Source: Tridacna crocea (taxonomy: Eukaryota; Mollusca; Bivalvia; Cardiida; Cardiidae). From it: DNA of 64,000 nucleotides. Of this stretch, positions 2,885 through 62,108 are shown piece after piece. The position numbers were made by a program, and so were the translations under genes. The notes beneath the pieces are model-generated. The model ran no database searches. It worked only from the letters and a program-made list of their open reading frames with translations, and was not told the DNA's origin. The DNA lies in contig OX031060.1 in the NCBI GenBank assembly GCA_943736015.1, positions 2,066,001 to 2,130,000 on the forward strand, given 5' to 3'. Positions within the stretch are counted from its first letter, which is position 1, and each line of letters begins with the position of its first letter.

Positions 2885-3114
2885 TTAACCCCTTACTCCA
2901 TAGATACTCATTTTGACGGATCAACAACAGACAGCTTTTGAAAACATTGTGGGAAAAGGAGAAATAGCTCGTAACCAGCAATTCCTCCTTTTCCCACAAT
3001 GTTTCCCACTCAATCTGATATTTGTAGCCTCATTTGTCCATATTTTTGACATCATATCTTTGTTTGCTGCTGAAATGGAAGAGCCTCAAAGTGGCATATC
3101 AGGTAAAGGGTTAA
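2885..3114 (+). mobile_element. Chimeric A/B element
   Basis: TTAA-bounded, 230 bp. The left end is family B (TTAACCCCTTACTCCATAG), but the outer stem is family A (GGGAAAAGGAG with CTCCTTTTCCC). The loop is mixed: GCTCGT on one side and ACCAGC on the other, so the inner stem no longer pairs perfectly. Confidence 0.8.
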
Positions 3115-5339: not shown

Positions 5340-6034
5340 GTAACTGCATACCAAACGGAAAAAAACTTAGACTGGTCCAAATTGAAAGCACTTGCAGACA
5401 ACAAAAAAAATCTGACTCAAAAATTGAAACTTGACTTTAGAAGAGTAGAAAACATTGGGGGAAAAGAAGAAAATACTGGTTACTAGCGTTTTCTCCTTTT
5501 CCCACAGTGTTTTCAGAGGACTTTTTCCTCAGGGTTATTAGATCCAGGGATTGTTTGGTAAAGGATTAAAGAGTGAACTTATTACCCCATAATTTGGGGT
5601 GTTTATAAATCTGAGAAACAGAGGCTTTTGAAAAAAAACTTTGGGAAATGGAGAAAATGTAAGAAACCAGCATTTTCTCATTTATCTGTAATGTTTTCTT
5701 CTCTTCCAAATACTAATTTCAATTTTTGAGTCATATTAATTTTGCCTGCAAAATGCTTTCAATTTGGACAACTTTAGAATTTTATCTTTTATGACAGAGT
5801 TTAACCCATTACCACACGATCCCTACTTTTGACACCTCTGAGGTAGAAGCCTTTAGAAAACATTGTGGGAAAAGGAGAAAATGCTGGTAACCAGCATTTT
5901 CTCCTTTTCCCACAATGTTTTCTACCCTTCACAAAACGAATTTCACATATTCAGTCACTTTTATTTTGTCGTTTGCAAATGCTTTCAATTTGGACAAGTT
6001 TAGAATTTTGTCTTTTATTATTACAGAGTTTTAG
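5340..6034. mobile_element. Three family A copies in a row
   Basis: Reverse copy 5340-5569; forward, diverged copy 5578-5803 (loop GTAAGAAACCAGC); forward copy 5801-6034 with a perfect palindrome at 5856-5922 (33-nt arms around A5889). The last two share one TTAA. The 5856-5922 stem is a good reference for family A. Confidence 0.85.
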
Positions 6035-6099
6035 CCCATCTTTTACACATCTAACTTTTCAGAGTTTTTTTATTTTTAACGCTTCACTGCCACAGTTCT

Positions 6100-6190
6100 G
6101 TATTTTAACAAGCCTGTGGAAGGACTGACTTTCGAAAATATTGTCGTGAAAAGGAGAAAAGGCTGGTAACTAGCATTTTCTTGTCAACAG
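6100..6190 (+). mobile_element. Family A fragment
   Basis: Decayed left half with AAAATATTGTCGTGAAAAGG and loop GCTGGTAACTAGC. The right arm is lost. Confidence 0.5.
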
Positions 6191-6359
6191 TGCACTTTAT
6201 TGAGGTTGTGAATTGTTATTCTGTTACTGTTGATTTCTGACCAAATCCAAACTTTACCCAAAGGAAGATGTGAGTTTTTACAGGAAATAAGCAATATCTT
6301 TGATATTAAAACCTCTCTGTTTGTCTGTATTTCTGTTTTGCTTTAGATTGACATACTGT

Positions 6360-6587
6360 TTAACCCTTTACTCCATAAGGCATTTCTATGGTATCTTTAA
6401 TTCACCCTAAATTACAGCAAGGATGAAGTTGTTTCTTATGTGTATATGACACCTTTTGATAGCATAGAAAACATTGTGACAAAAGGTGAAATTGCTTGTG
6501 ACGAGCAATTTCACCTTTTGCCACAATGTTTTCCAAGACTCCTTTAAGCAATGCGTAGAATTGAGTATCTATGGAGTAAAGGGTTAA
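6360..6587 (-). mobile_element. Family B element, complete
   Basis: 228 bp bounded by TTAA, in reverse orientation (starts at the CCATAAGGCATTTC end). The stem reads GTGACAAAAGGTGAAATTGC on one side and pairs with GCAATTTCACCTTTTGCC. Its right TTAA (6584-6587) is the left TTAA of the next copy. Confidence 0.9.
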
Positions 6588-6815
6588 CCCTTTACCCCAT
6601 TAGGCATATTCTATGGCATCTCTAATTGACTCTTAAATGACAGCAAGGATGAAGCCAATTCTTATGTGTAAATGACACCTTTTTGATAGCATAGAAAACA
6701 TTGTGGCAAAAGATGAAATTGCTCGTCATGAGCAATTTCACCTTTTGCCACAATGTTTTCCAAAGGCTCATACAAGCAATGTGTAGAAATGAGTTTCTAT
6801 GGAGTAAAGGGTTAA
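6584..6815 (-). mobile_element. Family B element, complete
   Basis: Second family B copy, same orientation, fused to the previous one through one TTAA. The loop is GCTCGTCATGAGC. Confidence 0.9.
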
Positions 6816-6842
6816 GTTAAAAACTGGCCCTAAAGTGCAAAG

Positions 6843-7071
6843 TTAACCCTTTACTCCACAGATACTCATTTCTACACATTGCTTGTAGGAGCCTTTGGAA
6901 AACATTGTGGCAAAAGGTGAAATTGCTCGTGACGAGCAATTTCACCTTTTGCCACAATGTTTTCTATGCTATCAAAAGGTGTCATATACACATAAGAAAC
7001 AGCTTCATCCTTGCTATTATTTAGGGTCAGATAGCAATACCATAGAAATGCCTTATGGGGTAAAGGGTTAA
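6843..7071 (+). mobile_element. Family B element, complete (reference)
   Basis: Forward copy with a perfect 33+1+33 palindrome at 6898-6964 centred on G6931. Against the family A stem it differs only at arm positions 14, 21, 26 and 31 and at the central base, each arm change being matched on the opposite arm. Confidence 0.92.
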
Positions 7072-9769: not shown

Positions 9770-10677
9770 GAAAATCATTGAAAATCTTCTTGTCTGAAAC
9801 CGTAAGGCCTAGGGCTACCAAATTTGGCATGTAGCTTTATCTAGTGAACCTCTACCAAGTGTCTTCAAATTATAATCCTGGATTCAAAATTGGCCCCGCC
9901 CCAGAGGTCACAAGTTTTACATAGGCTTATAATTATAGGGAGAATTTGTAAATTCTTCTTCTACCTAGCCATAGGGCCTAAGGCTACCAAATTTGGCATG
10001 AAGCTCTTTCTAGTGGGTCTTTATCAAGGGTGCCCAAATTATAGCCCTGGGGTCAAATTTTGCTCCACCCTGGGGTCATAAGTTTTACATGGACTTATAT
10101 AGGGAGAACTTTCAAATTCTGCTTCTACCTAGCCATAGGGTCTAAGGCTGCCAAATTTGGCATGTAGCTTTATCTAGTGGGCCTCTACCAAGAGGGCCCA
10201 AATTATAACCTTGGGGTTCAAGTTTGGCCCCACCACAGGGGCTTACAAGTTTTACATGGGCTTTTTCATTGGAAACTTGATGGATCTTCTTGTGACTAAC
10301 TATAAGACCTACGGCTAACCTGTGCGATGGGTCTCATGTTTTACAGGGCCTTTTATTGAGTAAACTTGTTTTACAGGGCCTTTTATTGAGCAACTTTGAA
10401 AATCATCTTGTTTATAACCACACATTCTAGACTTGACTTTTTTTTTTTTGGTATGGGGCTGTATCTTGCGGACTTCCACCAGGATTCAAGTATTTGTAGC
10501 TTTGTGGCCAAAAATGGCTTTGCCTTGGGGTCATAACTTTCTTGAAGGATTTTATGGAAGAAAATTTTGTATGTCTTCTAGTTTAAAACCAATTGGCTAA
10601 GTATTGTAATGTTTGGCTTGTAGTGTTTTGATGTATTAGCCAGTGGAGCAATACAGGGCCATCATCGGCCCTCTTGT
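9770..10677 (+). mobile_element. Helentron-like element, 5'-truncated
   Basis: About 150-bp tandem units carry phrases such as GGGCTACCAAATTTGGCATG and ATTATAGCCCTGGGGTCAAA. The 3' end is GCCAGTGGAGCAATACAGGGCCATCATCGGCCCTCTTGTT, split here as subterminal repeat GCCAGTGGAGC plus hairpin GGGCC/GGCCC plus TCTTGTT. The core and 3' end match the complete element at 30103-31585; the AGCTCCACTGGC head is missing. Non-autonomous, no Rep/helicase ORF. Confidence 0.75.
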
Positions 10678-11905: not shown

Positions 11906-13950
11906 AACTTTTTACCTTGTGTACGCTCTAGAGGCCACAGTTTTAGTCGGATACTCATGAAAATTAGTCAGGATGTTTGTCTCGATGAAATCTCGGACGA
12001 GTTCGAAAATGGGTCATGTGGGGTCAAAAACTAGGTCACTAGGTCAAATCTTAGAAAAACCTTGTGTACGCTCTAGAGGCCACATTTTGAGTCGGATACT
12101 CATGAAAGTTGGTCAGGATGTTTGTCTCGATGATATCTCGGACGAGTTCGAAAATGGGTCACGTGGGGTCAAAAACTAGGTCACCAGGTCAAATCTTAGA
12201 AAAACCTTGTGTACGCTCTAGAGGCCACATTTTCAGTCGGATACTCATGAAAGTTGGTCAGGATGTTTGTCTGGATGATATCTCGGACGAGTTCGAAAAT
12301 GGGTCACGTGGGGTCAAAAACTAGGTCACCAGGTCAAATCTTAGAAAAACCTTTTGTACGCTCTAGAGGCCACATTTTCAGTCGGATACTCATGAAAGTT
12401 GGTCAGGATGTTTGTCTGGATGATATCTCGGACGAGTTCGAAAATGGGTCACGTGGGGTCAAAAACTAGGTCACCAGGTCAAATCTTAGAAAAACCTTTT
12501 GTACGCTCTAGAGGCCACATTTTCAGTCGGATACTCATGAAAGTTGGTCAGGATGTTTGTCTGGATGATATCTCGGACGAGTTCGAAAATGGGTCACGTG
12601 GGGTCAAAAACTAGGTCACCAGGTCAAATCTTAGAAAAACCTTTTGTACGCTCTAGAGGCCACATTTTCAGTCGGATACTCATGAAAGTTGGTCAGGATG
12701 TTTGTCTGGATGATATCTCGGACGAGTTCGAAAATGGGTCACGTGGGGTCAAAAACTAGGTCACCAGGTCAAATCTTAGAAAAACCTTTTGTACGCTCTA
12801 GAGGCCACATTTTCAGTCGGATACTCATGAAAGTTGGTCAGGATGTTTGTCTGGATGATATCTCGGACGAGTTCGAAAATGGGTCACGTGGGGTCAAAAA
12901 CTAGGTCACTAGGTCAAATCTTAGAAAAACCTTTTGTACGCTCTAGAGGCCACATTTCCAGATGGATACTCATGAAAGTTGGTCAGGATGTTTGTCTGGA
13001 TGATATCTCGGACAAGTTCGAAAATGGGTCACGTGGGGTCAAAAACTAGGTCACTAGGTCAAATCTTAGAAAAACCTTTTGTACGCTCTAGAGGCCACAT
13101 TTTCAGTTGGATACTCATGAAAGTTGGTCAGGATATTTGTCTGGATGATATCTCGGACAAGATCGAAAATGGGTCATGTGGTGTCAAAAACTAGGTCACT
13201 AGGTCAAATCTTAGAAAAACCTTTTGTACGCTCTAAAGGCCACATTTTCAGTCCGAAACTCTTGTTAGTTGGTCAGAATGTTTGTCTTGATGATATCTCA
13301 GACCGGTTTGAAAATGGGTCATTGGGGGTTAAAAACTAGGTCACCAGGTCAAATCTTAGAAAAACCTTGTATATGCTCTGGATGCCACATTTTCAGTCCA
13401 ACACTCTTGAAAATTAGTCAGAATGTTTGCCTTTATAATATCTTGGATGAGTTTGAAAATGGGTCATGTTGGGTCAAAAACTGGGTCAATAGGTCAAATG
13501 TTATAAACACCTTTTGTATGCTCTGGAGGACACATTTTCAGTCTGATACTCCTAAAACTTGTTCATTATATTTGTCCTGGTGATACCTTGAATGAGATTG
13601 AAAATGGGTCATGTGGAGTCAAAAACTAGGTCAATGGGTCAAATATTAGAAAAACCTTGTGTACACTCTAGAGGCTACATTTTCTGCCTGATATTCTTCA
13701 GACTTGGTCAGAATGTTTGTTTTGGTGATGTCTCAAAAGAGTTTGATAATGGGTAATTGTCGGGTCCAAAACTAGGTCACTTGATGAAATCTTAGAAAAA
13801 CCTTTTGTACACTGTAGAGGCCACATTTTCAGTCCAATACTCATGAAACTTGGCCAGAATGTTTGTCTTATTGATATCTCAAAAGTGTTTGATGATGGGT
13901 AATGTCTGATAAAAAACTAGGTCACTGGGAAACTAGATGGTGCATGTTTG
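11906..13950 (+). repeat. 145-bp tandem array
   Basis: About fourteen units. Those between 12200 and 12900 are almost identical, while units towards the 3' side (13225-13950) diverge steadily, the usual sign of homogenisation in the middle of an array. Every unit holds several GGTCA half-sites. Confidence 0.9.
12155..13055 (+). promoter_or_regulatory. Repeated GGTCA direct repeats and E-boxes (possible)
   Basis: Each unit contains GGGTCA-CGTG-GGGTCA, whose middle forms the E-box CACGTG (12160, 12305, 12450, 12595, 12740, 12885, 13030), followed by AGGTCA-CC/CT-AGGTCA, a DR2 arrangement. Where the spacer is CT the context AAACTAGGTCACTAGGTCA fits the RevDR2 consensus of REV-ERB/ROR receptors. 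Binding is inference only. Confidence 0.3.
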
Positions 13951-21981: not shown

Positions 21982-22208
21982 TAACCTTTCCCAAACAACA
22001 AGTTTTAGACTCGTCCAAACTGAAAGGGTTTGCAGACGACAATTTCAAACTCATATGAAAATGGTATAAAGTTCTCCAAATGGGAGGAAAACACTATGGG
22101 AAAAGGAGAAATTGCTCGTCACGAGCAATTTCTCCTTTTCCCACAGTGTTTTCAAAAGACTTGTATTGCAGACATGTAAAAACCAGAGTTTGTTTGGTAA
22201 AGGGTTAA
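21981..22208 (-). mobile_element. Family A element with half-converted (A/B) stem
   Basis: Both flanks are family A reverse. The palindrome is at 22087-22153 (centre C22120). Arm positions 14 and 21 are family A (G, A), whereas positions 26 and 31 are family B (T, C), on both arms. One outer pair, position 10, is mismatched. Confidence 0.9.
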
Positions 22209-26356: not shown

Positions 26357-26585
26357 TTAACCCATTACCAAACAATCCCTACTTTTGACGCCTCTGAGAA
26401 AGACACCTTTAGAAAACATTGTGGGAAAAGGAGAAAATGCTGGTAACCAGCATTTTCTCCTTTTCCCACAATGCTTTCTACCCTTCACGAAACAAATTTC
26501 AAATTTTCAGTCACTTTTATTTTGTCGTCTGCAAATGCTTTCAATTTGGACAAGTCTAAAATATTGTCGTCTGGTAATGGGTTAA
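26357..26585 (+). mobile_element. Family A element, complete
   Basis: Forward 229-bp copy with TTAA at both ends and an intact stem (one mismatch, CACAATGCTTTC). Confidence 0.92.
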
Positions 26586-27146: not shown

Positions 27147-27370
27147 CTCATTACCAAACAACAATATTTTAGGCTTGTCCAAACCGAAAGCATTTGCAGA
27201 CGACAAAATTAAAGTAACTGAAAAATTGAAATTTGTTCTGGGAAGTGTAGAAAACACTGTGGGAAAAGGAGAAAATGCTGGTTACCAGCATTTTCTCCTT
27301 TTCCCACAGTGTTTTCAAAAGGCTTCTTTCTCAGGGGCGTCAAAGTAGGGATTGTGTGGTAATGGGTTAA
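27143..27370 (-). mobile_element. Family A element, complete, with compensated outer pair
   Basis: Reverse 228-bp copy. The outer arm reads GAAAACACTGTGGG and its partner CCCACAGTGTTTTC: position 8 has changed on both arms so pairing is kept. Confidence 0.93.
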
Positions 27371-30102: not shown

Positions 30103-31585
30103 AGCTCCACTGGCCGAAGGCCAGCGGGCTTATGTCATGGCCCGTTGTCCGTCGTGCCTCCGTCCGTTAACTTTTTCTTTAAACATCTTCTTCTCTGAAA
30201 CTACCCATCCAATTTTGATGAAACTTCACAGAAATGATCCTGTCATGGTCCTCTTCAGAATTTCTTTAAAATATTTAAGTCCTTCAAAAACTCTGGTTGC
30301 CATGGCAACAAAACTGAAAAATTTTGAAAATCTTCTTGTCTGAAACCGTAAGGCCTAGGGCTACCAAATTTGGCATGTAGCTTTATCTAGCGGACCTCTA
30401 CCAAGTTTCTTCAAATTATAGCCCTGGGGTCAAAATTGGCCCCGCCCTGGGGGTCATAAGGTTTTACATGGGCTTATTTAGGGAGAACTTTAAAATTCCT
30501 CTTCTACCTAGGCATAGGACCTAGGGCTACCAAATTTGACATGTAGTTTTATCTAGTGGACCTCTACCAACAGTGTCCAAATTATAGCCCTGGGGTCAAA
30601 ATTGGCCCCTCCCCGGGGGTAACAAGTTTATGGGCTTATTTAGTGAAAACTTTCAAAATCTTCCCGCACCTAGCTATAAGGGCTAGGGCTATCAAATTTT
30701 GCATGTAGCTTTATTTAGGGGGTCTCTACCAAGGGTGCCCAAATTATAGCCCTGGGAACAAATTTAGCCCTGTCCCAGGGGGTCACAAATTTTTACATGG
30801 GCTCATATAGGGAAACTTTAACAATCTACTCGTACATAGCCATAAGGTCTAGGGCTACCAAATTTTGCATGTAGCTTTATCTAATGGGCCTCTACCAAGA
30901 GGGCCCAAATTTTAACTTTGGGGGTCAAGTTTGTGCCCACCCTAGGGGTCATAAGTTTTACATTGGCTTTTACATTGGCTTTTATAGTGAAAACTTGATA
31001 AATCTGTCTCGTGGGTCACATACTTTAGAGGGCCTTTTATTGAGCAAACTTGTTTTACAGGGCTTTTTATTGGGCAAGATTAAAAAATCTTCTTGTTTAT
31101 AACCACACATTCTAGTTTCATATTGTAGGTCTGGGGTCAAAATTGGCTCCATTCCAGGGATCACAAGTTTAACATGGGCTTCAAAATATAGTCACTTCAA
31201 TTTAAACATTAATCAAGGGAAATAACTAATGAAAGATAAAGTTTGGTACTATTTACTTCCCTTGATTATCAAACTGCATTGACACATGATTGGTGCTAAG
31301 TTTTTTGATAGAAAATATTCTGTTTTCAAGGAGTGTGATTCATTTTGATGCTAATAGTTATGCTCACATGAGTTGAATAATAAATTCAGAGTAAGGTTTC
31401 TATCATTCAGCTTATTTTTCCAAGGATTTTTACCTTTCATGCTAATGAATTAATCTGCTTGTATTGCCTGACAGTGTTCATTGTTTTTGAAGGTCCTCTT
31501 TTTCATGGTCATGAACACTTCAATATGTGTGGTAAAGGGTTAAAAAGCCAGTGGAGCGATACAGGGCCATCATGGCCCTCTTGTT
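30103..31585 (+). mobile_element. Helentron-like element, complete
   Basis: Head AGCTCCACTGGC (30103-30114) followed by hairpin TGGCC-GAA-GGCCA and a GTCCGTCGTGCCTCCGTCC stretch. Core of about 150-bp units (CTACCAAATTTGGCATGTAG, ATTATAGCCCTGGGGTC). Tail GCCAGTGGAGC (31547-31557) plus hairpin GGGCCATCATGGCCC (31564-31578) plus TCTTGTT. Head and tail are inverted complements. Same plan as 11783-13999 with different sequences in the head, subterminal repeats and core, but an identical 3' hairpin. Non-coding. Confidence 0.82.
31470..31543 (-). mobile_element. Family A fragment inside the Helentron-like element
   Basis: ATGTGTGGTAAAGGGTTAA end and a decayed right flank, immediately before the GCCAGTGGAGC subterminal repeat. 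Confidence 0.6.
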
Positions 31586-38888: not shown

Positions 38889-39372
38889 GCTCACCTTGAG
38901 CACAAGATGCTCAAGGTGAGCTTTTGTGATTATGCTGTGTCCGTGGTATGTCATCCGCTGTGCATCATCTTGGTGTCAACAACTATTGCCTTGTGTCCAC
39001 TTTAGAGGCCACATTTTCTGCCATATTATACTCATTACACTTACTCATAAGGTTTTGACACCTGTTCCAAGCATGAAATTGGGTCATTTTTGGTCAAAAA
39101 GTATGTCACCAGACCACATCGTAGAAAAACCTTGTGTGCACTCTGGTGGCTACAATTTCAGCAGGATACGAACTTAACTTGGTCAGAATATTTTCCTTGT
39201 TAATATCACTCATAAGTTTGCATTATTGTTACAAACTCTTATCAGCTGGCCACTAAACCTTGTGCCTTTTATATCAATGCTACCAGGATCTCTCCAGCCT
39301 TGTCAATCCAAGATGACTTAATTCACTCAGGTGAGGGCATTAGCATCAGGCCAATGGGCACCTTGTCTCCAT
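38889..39372 (+). mobile_element. Helentron-like element, degenerate and short
   Basis: Head GGCTCACCTTGAGCAC with hairpin GAGCAC-AA-GATGCTC, then GCTGTGTCCGTGG. Three decayed 145-bp-type units (CCTTGTGTCCACTTTAGAGG, GGTCAAAAAGTATGTCACC). Tail CACTCAGGTGAGGGC. The 3' GGGCC hairpin is decayed. Confidence 0.7.
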
Positions 39373-61959: not shown

Positions 61960-62108
61960 AATGCATTTGCCTTATAAAGACGAAAAAAACATTAGGGGAA
62001 AAGGAAAAAGAGACTTGATTAACACAAGTCTCTTTTTTTCCAACAATGTTTTCAAAATTCATCTTTCTCTGTTCTTCGGATTGTTAGAACAAAGGACAGT
62101 TTTGTAAA
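61960..62108 (-). mobile_element. Family A-like element with a different stem
   Basis: Outer words of family A (ACATTAGGGGAAAAGG, CAACAATGTTTTC) enclose a new inner stem AAAAAGAGACTTG (62005-62017) / CAAGTCTCTTTTT (62024-62036). Confidence 0.72.

Follow-up and report, generated by a model that had tools for sequence, protein, structure and literature searches.

The CMITEs of Acropora (Wang et al. 2010, PMC2872659) are, like the elements of the bivalve Tridacna crocea described here, TTAA-flanked piggyBac-type MITEs with CCC tips, and CMITE families whose tips differ have in common an internal region which is more conserved than those tips and whose role is given as unknown. The same trait is present in T. 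crocea, where three families, A, B and C, share a palindrome that is 87-91% identical and have flanks that are alike at chance level (A-B and B-C) or at 72-78% (A-C). CMITEs differ in being about 100 bp long and in amounting to about 1,600 copies in A. millepora; their core contains no strong inverted repeat (at best 11 of 26 paired), and covariation is not among the features described in the part of that paper available to us (PMC2872659). In addition, local alignments of the CMITE core with A, B and C score no better than shuffles.

A second comparable repeat is the Lucina pectinata MITE-like consensus sequence 1 (2016, PMC4732748), a 210-bp bivalve repeat that has terminal inverted repeats and, at its centre, a self-complementary segment of 77 bp with 96% identity, akin to the central palindrome in T. 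crocea. However, it was derived from copies in two haemoglobin genes, with no target duplication found, and neither families nor paired changes are described in the available part of that report (PMC4732748). The ends of piggyBac and piggyBat carry internal palindromes bound by a transposase dimer, but these are short and partly imperfect, whereas that of T. crocea is 67 bp long and perfect in the family consensus (PMC11707139). DINE-1, a non-autonomous element, has a 3' stem-loop whose stem differs between species and for which its authors suggest compensatory mutations; it is by analogy a precedent for compensated stems, although the stem is subterminal and only 7-11 nt long, the element is debated as a MITE or a Helitron, and a genome-wide pairing test is not among the features described in the part of the paper at hand (PMC2374699). 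Furthermore, template-switch mutations in rRNA hairpins produce paired stem changes by one mutation event, but rRNA hairpins belong to RNA genes under RNA selection and not to a transposon, and the process looks rare in T. crocea (PMC8794818). A literature search, outside which most subscription journals lay, yielded no title or opening of an abstract on paired changes in a long MITE palindrome and no paper uniting a long perfect palindrome, such a copy number and measured paired evolution.

The window, that is, the whole stretch of 64,000 nucleotides (64 kb) of T. crocea DNA analysed, contains several such elements (Table 1). The original prediction, made from the letters alone, was that one A stem and one B stem are perfect palindromes, that every difference between them is a mirrored complement swap and that their flanking halves are almost unrelated. 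On recheck, both stems were again perfect 33+1+33 palindromes of 67 nt, which differ at pairs 14 (G/C), 21 (A/T), 26 (A/T) and 31 (G/C), each difference being mirrored on the opposite arm, and at the central base, A in the A stem and G in the B stem. Folded as single-stranded DNA, they reach -37.2 kcal/mol (A, z -14.5) and -38.3 kcal/mol (B, z -15.2), and none of 200 shuffles folded as low as either stem. The consensus flanks of A and B are likewise as unrelated as had been claimed, being at shuffle level on the left (z 1.7) and on the right (z 0.8).

Table 1. Elements and palindromes of families A, B and C in the window
Feature	Position	Strand	Remark
A-family element	5801..6029	+	holds the A stem; TTAA kept on the left, right end degraded and placed by the 107-bp spacing
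A palindrome 33+1+33, haplotype AAAA (pairs 14, 21, 26, 31)	5856..5922	+	direct check and folds
B-family element, TTAA-CCCTTTAC ... GTAAAGGG-TTAA	6843..7071	+	B consensus
B palindrome, haplotype BBBB	6898..6964	+	direct check and folds
Second B element	6360..6587	-	palindrome 6467-6533 with pair-13 mismatch (G.T in element orientation)
Third B element	6584..6815	-	palindrome 6694-6760; TTAA common with element 6360..6587
A element, TTAA at both ends	26357..26585	+	served as A query
C-type palindrome, AABB, pair 8 C-G, pair 10 broken	22087..22153	-	haplotype linking A and B
A-family palindrome, paired change at pair 8 (T-A to C-G)	27250..27316	-	flank-defined subfamily
Older copy, B-like tip (2885), partly decayed AABB-type stem (pair 31 = C.C)	2940..3006	+	

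Other repeats are found in the neighbourhood. The window holds a tandem array at 11914-13926 (145-bp unit, 13.9 copies, 91% matches), a stretch at 39088-39258 related to it (63%), and two short arrays with a similar unit of 164-166 bp at 9806-10263 and 30349-30969. A copy at 61986-62053 has the usual AAAAC...GTTTTC ends and a different inner inverted repeat (AGAGACTTG...CAAGTCTCT). Outside the window, a palindrome with a GGATTAGCCTGCGCAG core at locus L030:2316-2387 is unrelated to A, B and C and probably corresponds to one known from heterodont bivalve sequences.

The A and B stems are identically placed within elements of 229 bp that are bounded by TTAA on both sides and consist of a 55-bp left part, the 67-bp palindrome with its 1-nt centre and a right part of 106-107 bp; the flanks of A and B show no sequence likeness above shuffles, yet their lengths are identical (55 and 107). 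Among 83 distinct elements flanked by TTAA on both sides, 63 were of 229 bp and 14 of 228 bp, only totals of 226-231 bp having been sought. The longest stop-free stretch in any consensus is 74 aa. The A, B and C consensus sequences each begin and end with TTAA, the target of piggyBac and piggyBat, and the tips are CCCATTACC in A, CCCTTTAC in B and CCCTTTCCCAAAC in C, with 10, 8 and 13 leading bases, respectively, identical between the two ends. With their TTAA target and fixed plan, A, B and C are classed as a putative superfamily of non-autonomous cut-and-paste elements of the piggyBac type. The tips start with CCCTTT in B and C and with CCCATT in A; a CC[C/T]T tip rule is on record, and one coral element likewise has CCCATT (PMC2872659).

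Two nested insertions give relative ages. At L002:1501-1729 a B copy lies inside an older A element, the halves of which, joined at a single TTAA, align with A 20-229, and at L037:774-3762 an element with a transposase and its own CCCTTTATATAC tips is nested at TTAA in an old A element, so that the A-like tips lying further out at that locus are part of the interrupted A MITE. Together with the TTAA on either side of each consensus, these cases bear out a duplication of the TTAA target. The genome contains 118 piggyBac transposase matches of family PF13843. Tips were sought at 30 of these 118 loci, a matched CCC tip pair was proposed in 12, and no autonomous partner with A, B or C tips was found among the 30. 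In 25 of these 30 loci (L031-L060) the match lacks internal stops, and their tips are of four kinds or more (CCCTTTATATAC, CCCTAGTCATGC, CCCTTTCAG and CCCATTTATGCC); the genome may still carry active elements. Within the window, Rfam models gave no match at the gathering score; a tRNA search found none, viral contigs contained no exact match to the core and no relative of one ORF of the window, and a B element matched no phage record.

The elements are extremely numerous. The palindrome profile matched 113 times in the window and 53 times in five random 10-kb stretches (7, 12, 17, 13 and 4), and the latter figure, about one match per kb, gives, roughly, copies in the order of a million in the genome of 1.05 Gb (1,048,827,098 bases in 31 contigs). 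Intact cores were counted genome-wide as the inner 33 bases with the six flip positions and the centre free and the rest exact. By this count the window has 33 cores vs 12.8 expected, about 2.6 times the genome mean, and the random stretches have 6 vs 10 expected. In the whole genome the inner 33-mer occurs at 209,043 sites, 204,626 of which (97.9%) fall into three states with every pair intact, namely, AAA (180,061), ABB (9,593) and BBB (14,972). The remaining 4,417 cores (2.1%) correspond to 0.36% per flip position if each has a single flip. In the BB inner context, pair 21 is A.T in 9,593 cores and T.A in 14,972, as opposed to T.T in 104 and A.A in 79, about 0.37% unpaired per site, and the unpaired states of pair 26 (666 + 652) also amount to 0.37%; since all these values agree, the unpaired intermediates are at the level of decay.

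Between families, the pairing can be compared at several levels. The consensus palindromes are identical at 58/67 (A-B), 61/67 (A-C) and 60/67 (B-C) positions, the A-B and B-C flanks are at shuffle level, and the A-C flanks are clearly homologous (z 5.8 and 10.4). Family C has the haplotype AABB. Among 20 ABB copies examined, two are BABB, with a flip at pair 14 but none at pair 21, and are intermediate between C and B; another has paired G-C at pair 8 together with A-T at pair 14. Thus, in stems otherwise near-identical, pair 8 is seen as T-A, C-G and G-C and pair 14 as G-C, C-G and A-T. Family C, the BABB copies and the states of pair 8 show that paired changes are not confined to complement swaps: the claim that every difference is a mirrored swap holds for A vs B and fails beyond them, where paired transitions and other paired transversions occur, and mirrored flips as a special class were dropped. 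An independent acquisition of the A and B stems, which had been named as an alternative, is unlikely, because the AABB family and the BABB copies link A to B; three B-flanked copies with an AABB stem are in line with this.

Covariation between the arms, the proposed test, was strong: 205 distinct ungapped local copies had 229 double-change cells vs 66.8+-6.5 in shuffles, and 92.3% of their cells were standard pairs vs 87.7% shuffled. A picked set of 92 copies (91 distinct), made up of 88 of 105 aligned rows plus four chosen ones, with 17 A-type rows, mostly more decayed, left out, had 95.8% standard pairs and 161 doubles vs 65.2+-4.8 shuffled and 8-15 slid; the shuffle test is inflated by kinship among copies, and the control with slid partners retains the relatedness. 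A strongly diverged stem was also seen (L044:3937-4001), with 28 of 32 pairs still paired and paired changes at 12, 18, 28 and 32. The divergent arm of L060, sought as an amplified family, gave 0 exact-pattern sites, the L060 copy itself being unmatched owing to an indel.

One explanation of a palindrome far more alike between families than the flanks is that it is homogenised between families by ectopic gene conversion or modular exchange. This was weighed by a flank-stem test, in which 327 of 352 elements, those with a flank score above shuffles, were retained. At the four sites, 0 of 178 A-flanked ungapped copies had any paired B state, and 0 of 49 B-flanked ones had a paired A state at 26 or 31; many B loci and all ABB loci had been fetched for similarity, and with similarity-chosen loci left out, mixed copies numbered 0 of 158 (A-flanked) and 0 of 17 (B-flanked). 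Palindrome swapping between A and B is accordingly disfavoured, the stems not being mixed with the other family's flanks. C flanks foretell the stem less cleanly than A or B flanks: 2 of 20 C-flanked ungapped copies are AAAA, one more has the A state at 31, and after removal of the chosen loci three of eight have the A state at 31. The two AAAA stems could be due to exchange or to common ancestry, and the more numerous A copies have left B stems intact, so exchange is considered a most improbable cause.

Within single copies the picture is different. Thirty young B copies have 31 broken pairs and one paired change, and 21 young A copies have 14 broken pairs and no paired change. Singleton changes in B are alike in palindrome (17/1980) and flank (53/4619; P 0.36), so that resident B copies have no clear protection; in A they are fewer in the palindrome (11/1386 vs 55/3233, P 0.021). 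When shared changes are included, the palindrome is lower in both B (34/1980 vs 132/4619, P 0.006) and A (14/1386 vs 121/3233, P 5e-8), as expected if the source elements are constrained. In 217 oriented A-type elements, a set which mixes subfamilies, departures from the consensus affect 6.9% of palindrome sites and 21.7% of flank sites. A tree built from the flanks of 240 non-redundant copies has, on its terminal branches, 667 changes that break a pair and 35 that are paired; of the 46 changes on its internal branches, 28 break a pair, 13 restore one and 5 are double changes that leave the pair intact. For deep branches only the end states were used, because additive-cost parsimony roots unpaired states by ties; above clades of at least 10 copies, changes at pairs 8, 14, 21, 26 and 31 end paired, with the sole exception of one reconstructed intermediate at pair 14.

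Therefore, the idea that structure has been conserved while sequence changed is borne out between families, by the covariation and the genome-wide counts, and is not borne out in single copies, in which arm substitutions are mostly unpaired, the very pattern that had been named as speaking against it. Pairing is a property of the lineages that amplified, and resident copies lose pairs. Nor is the property absolute: an amplified B subfamily carries G.T at pair 13 (18 of 49 oriented B copies), and, since this subfamily and small clades sharing unpaired changes exist, perfect pairing is not strictly required.

Of the two causes put forward in the original prediction, one was a mechanism copying one arm onto the other. 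Mutations of the template-switch or quasipalindrome type are on record (PMC8794818), and such correction alone, without selection, might keep the arms identical. A signal above chance is in fact seen at pair 26, the one pair covered genome-wide: the ABA state, with pair 26 flipped on both arms and 31 not, occurs in 30 exact copies, vs 2.4 independent doubles expected (666 x 652 / 180,061). The 30 copies scatter over flank subfamilies, three small clusters reducing them to about 26 groups by nearest-neighbour lists; by their scores, the flanks of five copies are C-like, such copies occur in two of the three clusters, and these are perhaps relics of a true intermediate lineage. Under a strict count, which demands a flank distance of at most 0.22 from an A.T copy and a position nearer to it than to any other ABA copy, 13 are independent (P 1.6e-6; with the expectation doubled to allow for unequal ages, P 0.0015). 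Moreover, doubles other than pair 8 in 217 local A copies number 36 vs 27.4+-4.7 (P 0.046). The nearest-neighbour test, however, had 178 A-flanked copies of some 180,000 as comparators, and for several of the 13 the nearest A.T copy is only slightly closer than the nearest ABA copy; some minor ABA subfamilies may thus have been overlooked. Paired flips may thus arise in place at 1-2% of the frequency of single flips.

Such a rate hardly suffices. Young A and B copies together show 45 broken pairs against one paired change, by which strong in-situ correction of resident copies was rejected; family B has 6 doubles vs 7.4 expected, the amplified G.T lineage remained uncorrected, and copying alone at the pair-26 rate would lead to a rough equilibrium with 19-23 of 33 pairs broken. 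The excess at pair 26 hints at rare arm templating which, by rough estimate, is too slow to hold 33 pairs alone. As a sole cause it is improbable; the above-chance signal at pair 26 stands, and what falls is its sufficiency for 33 of 33 pairs.

The other proposed cause, a function of the hairpin or cruciform, is the favoured one of the two. Since pairing matters for the lineages that spread and not for resting copies, a cis requirement in mobilisation or copying is suggested, and it is somewhat probable, from the comparison of copies, that the self-complementary stem, as hairpin or cruciform, is needed in cis for efficient mobilisation or amplification. The stem would act in cis during mobilisation or copying, lineages with the stem still paired would leave most descendants, new paired changes would arise stepwise via tolerated single mismatches, such as the G.T at pair 13 in B, and one arm would perhaps occasionally template the other. 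A hairpin or cruciform accords with pairs 8 and 14, which freely take one paired state or another. The conservation of the palindrome sequence itself counts against a reading by structure only, as structure alone would not demand it. The amplified G.T subfamily and the small clades with shared unpaired changes, the lower level of change in the palindromes of young copies, the looser tie between C flanks and their stems, and the failure to find an autonomous partner at the 30 loci searched for tips also weigh against the cis reading. The fuller version, in which success depends on the hairpin or cruciform, selection acts on self-complementarity itself and variants come partly from arm templating, is offered only tentatively.

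The main rival to the hairpin or cruciform is symmetric binding by the transposase. Here the palindrome would be the double-stranded site of a dimeric protein, for example through paired cysteine-rich domains (CRDs) of a piggyBac-type transposase, no hairpin would form, and the arms would change together whenever the recognised sequence shifts. Indeed, the transposase dimers of piggyBac and piggyBat bind palindromes near the transposon ends via two CRDs, although these palindromes, 19 bp in piggyBac and 14 bp for one in piggyBat, are far shorter than 67 (PMC11707139). The high conservation of the palindrome between families and its fixed spacing from the tips would also be accounted for, but the several paired states taken by pairs 8 and 14 in near-identical stems would not: if a base is not read, unpaired variants should amplify equally, and if it is read, a second mutation should not help. 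Symmetric binding is therefore regarded as rather unlikely.

Selection might also act on a transcribed RNA hairpin, e.g., a Dicer/Drosha substrate or a protected transcript. The stems fold well as RNA (A -53.2, B -52.2 kcal/mol), and the amplified B mismatch, G.T in element orientation, would be a G.U wobble in the sense RNA. Nevertheless, wobble-type mismatches show no overall strand bias (A, 163 G.T vs 150 A.C; B without pair 13, 18 G.T vs 21 A.C), for which such a bias was discarded, and the differences from A to B are complement flips, which have no G.U intermediate; selection on RNA is thus highly improbable.

What was a loose statement about MITEs folding as hairpins becomes a quantified one: lineages that amplify keep their pairing, and resident copies lose it. 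The result suggests either that piggyBac-type transposition involves a structural element acting in cis or that the transposase has a symmetric site of unusual length, and both are testable. Furthermore, since 209,043 near-intact cores are present in one genome, the rates of paired and unpaired change are measurable by counting, and template switching from arm to arm can thereby be put to a direct test in an animal. If the fuller version, with variants partly supplied by arm templating, is true, the hundreds of thousands of copies in T. crocea would constitute a natural assay for such switching at one defined palindrome.
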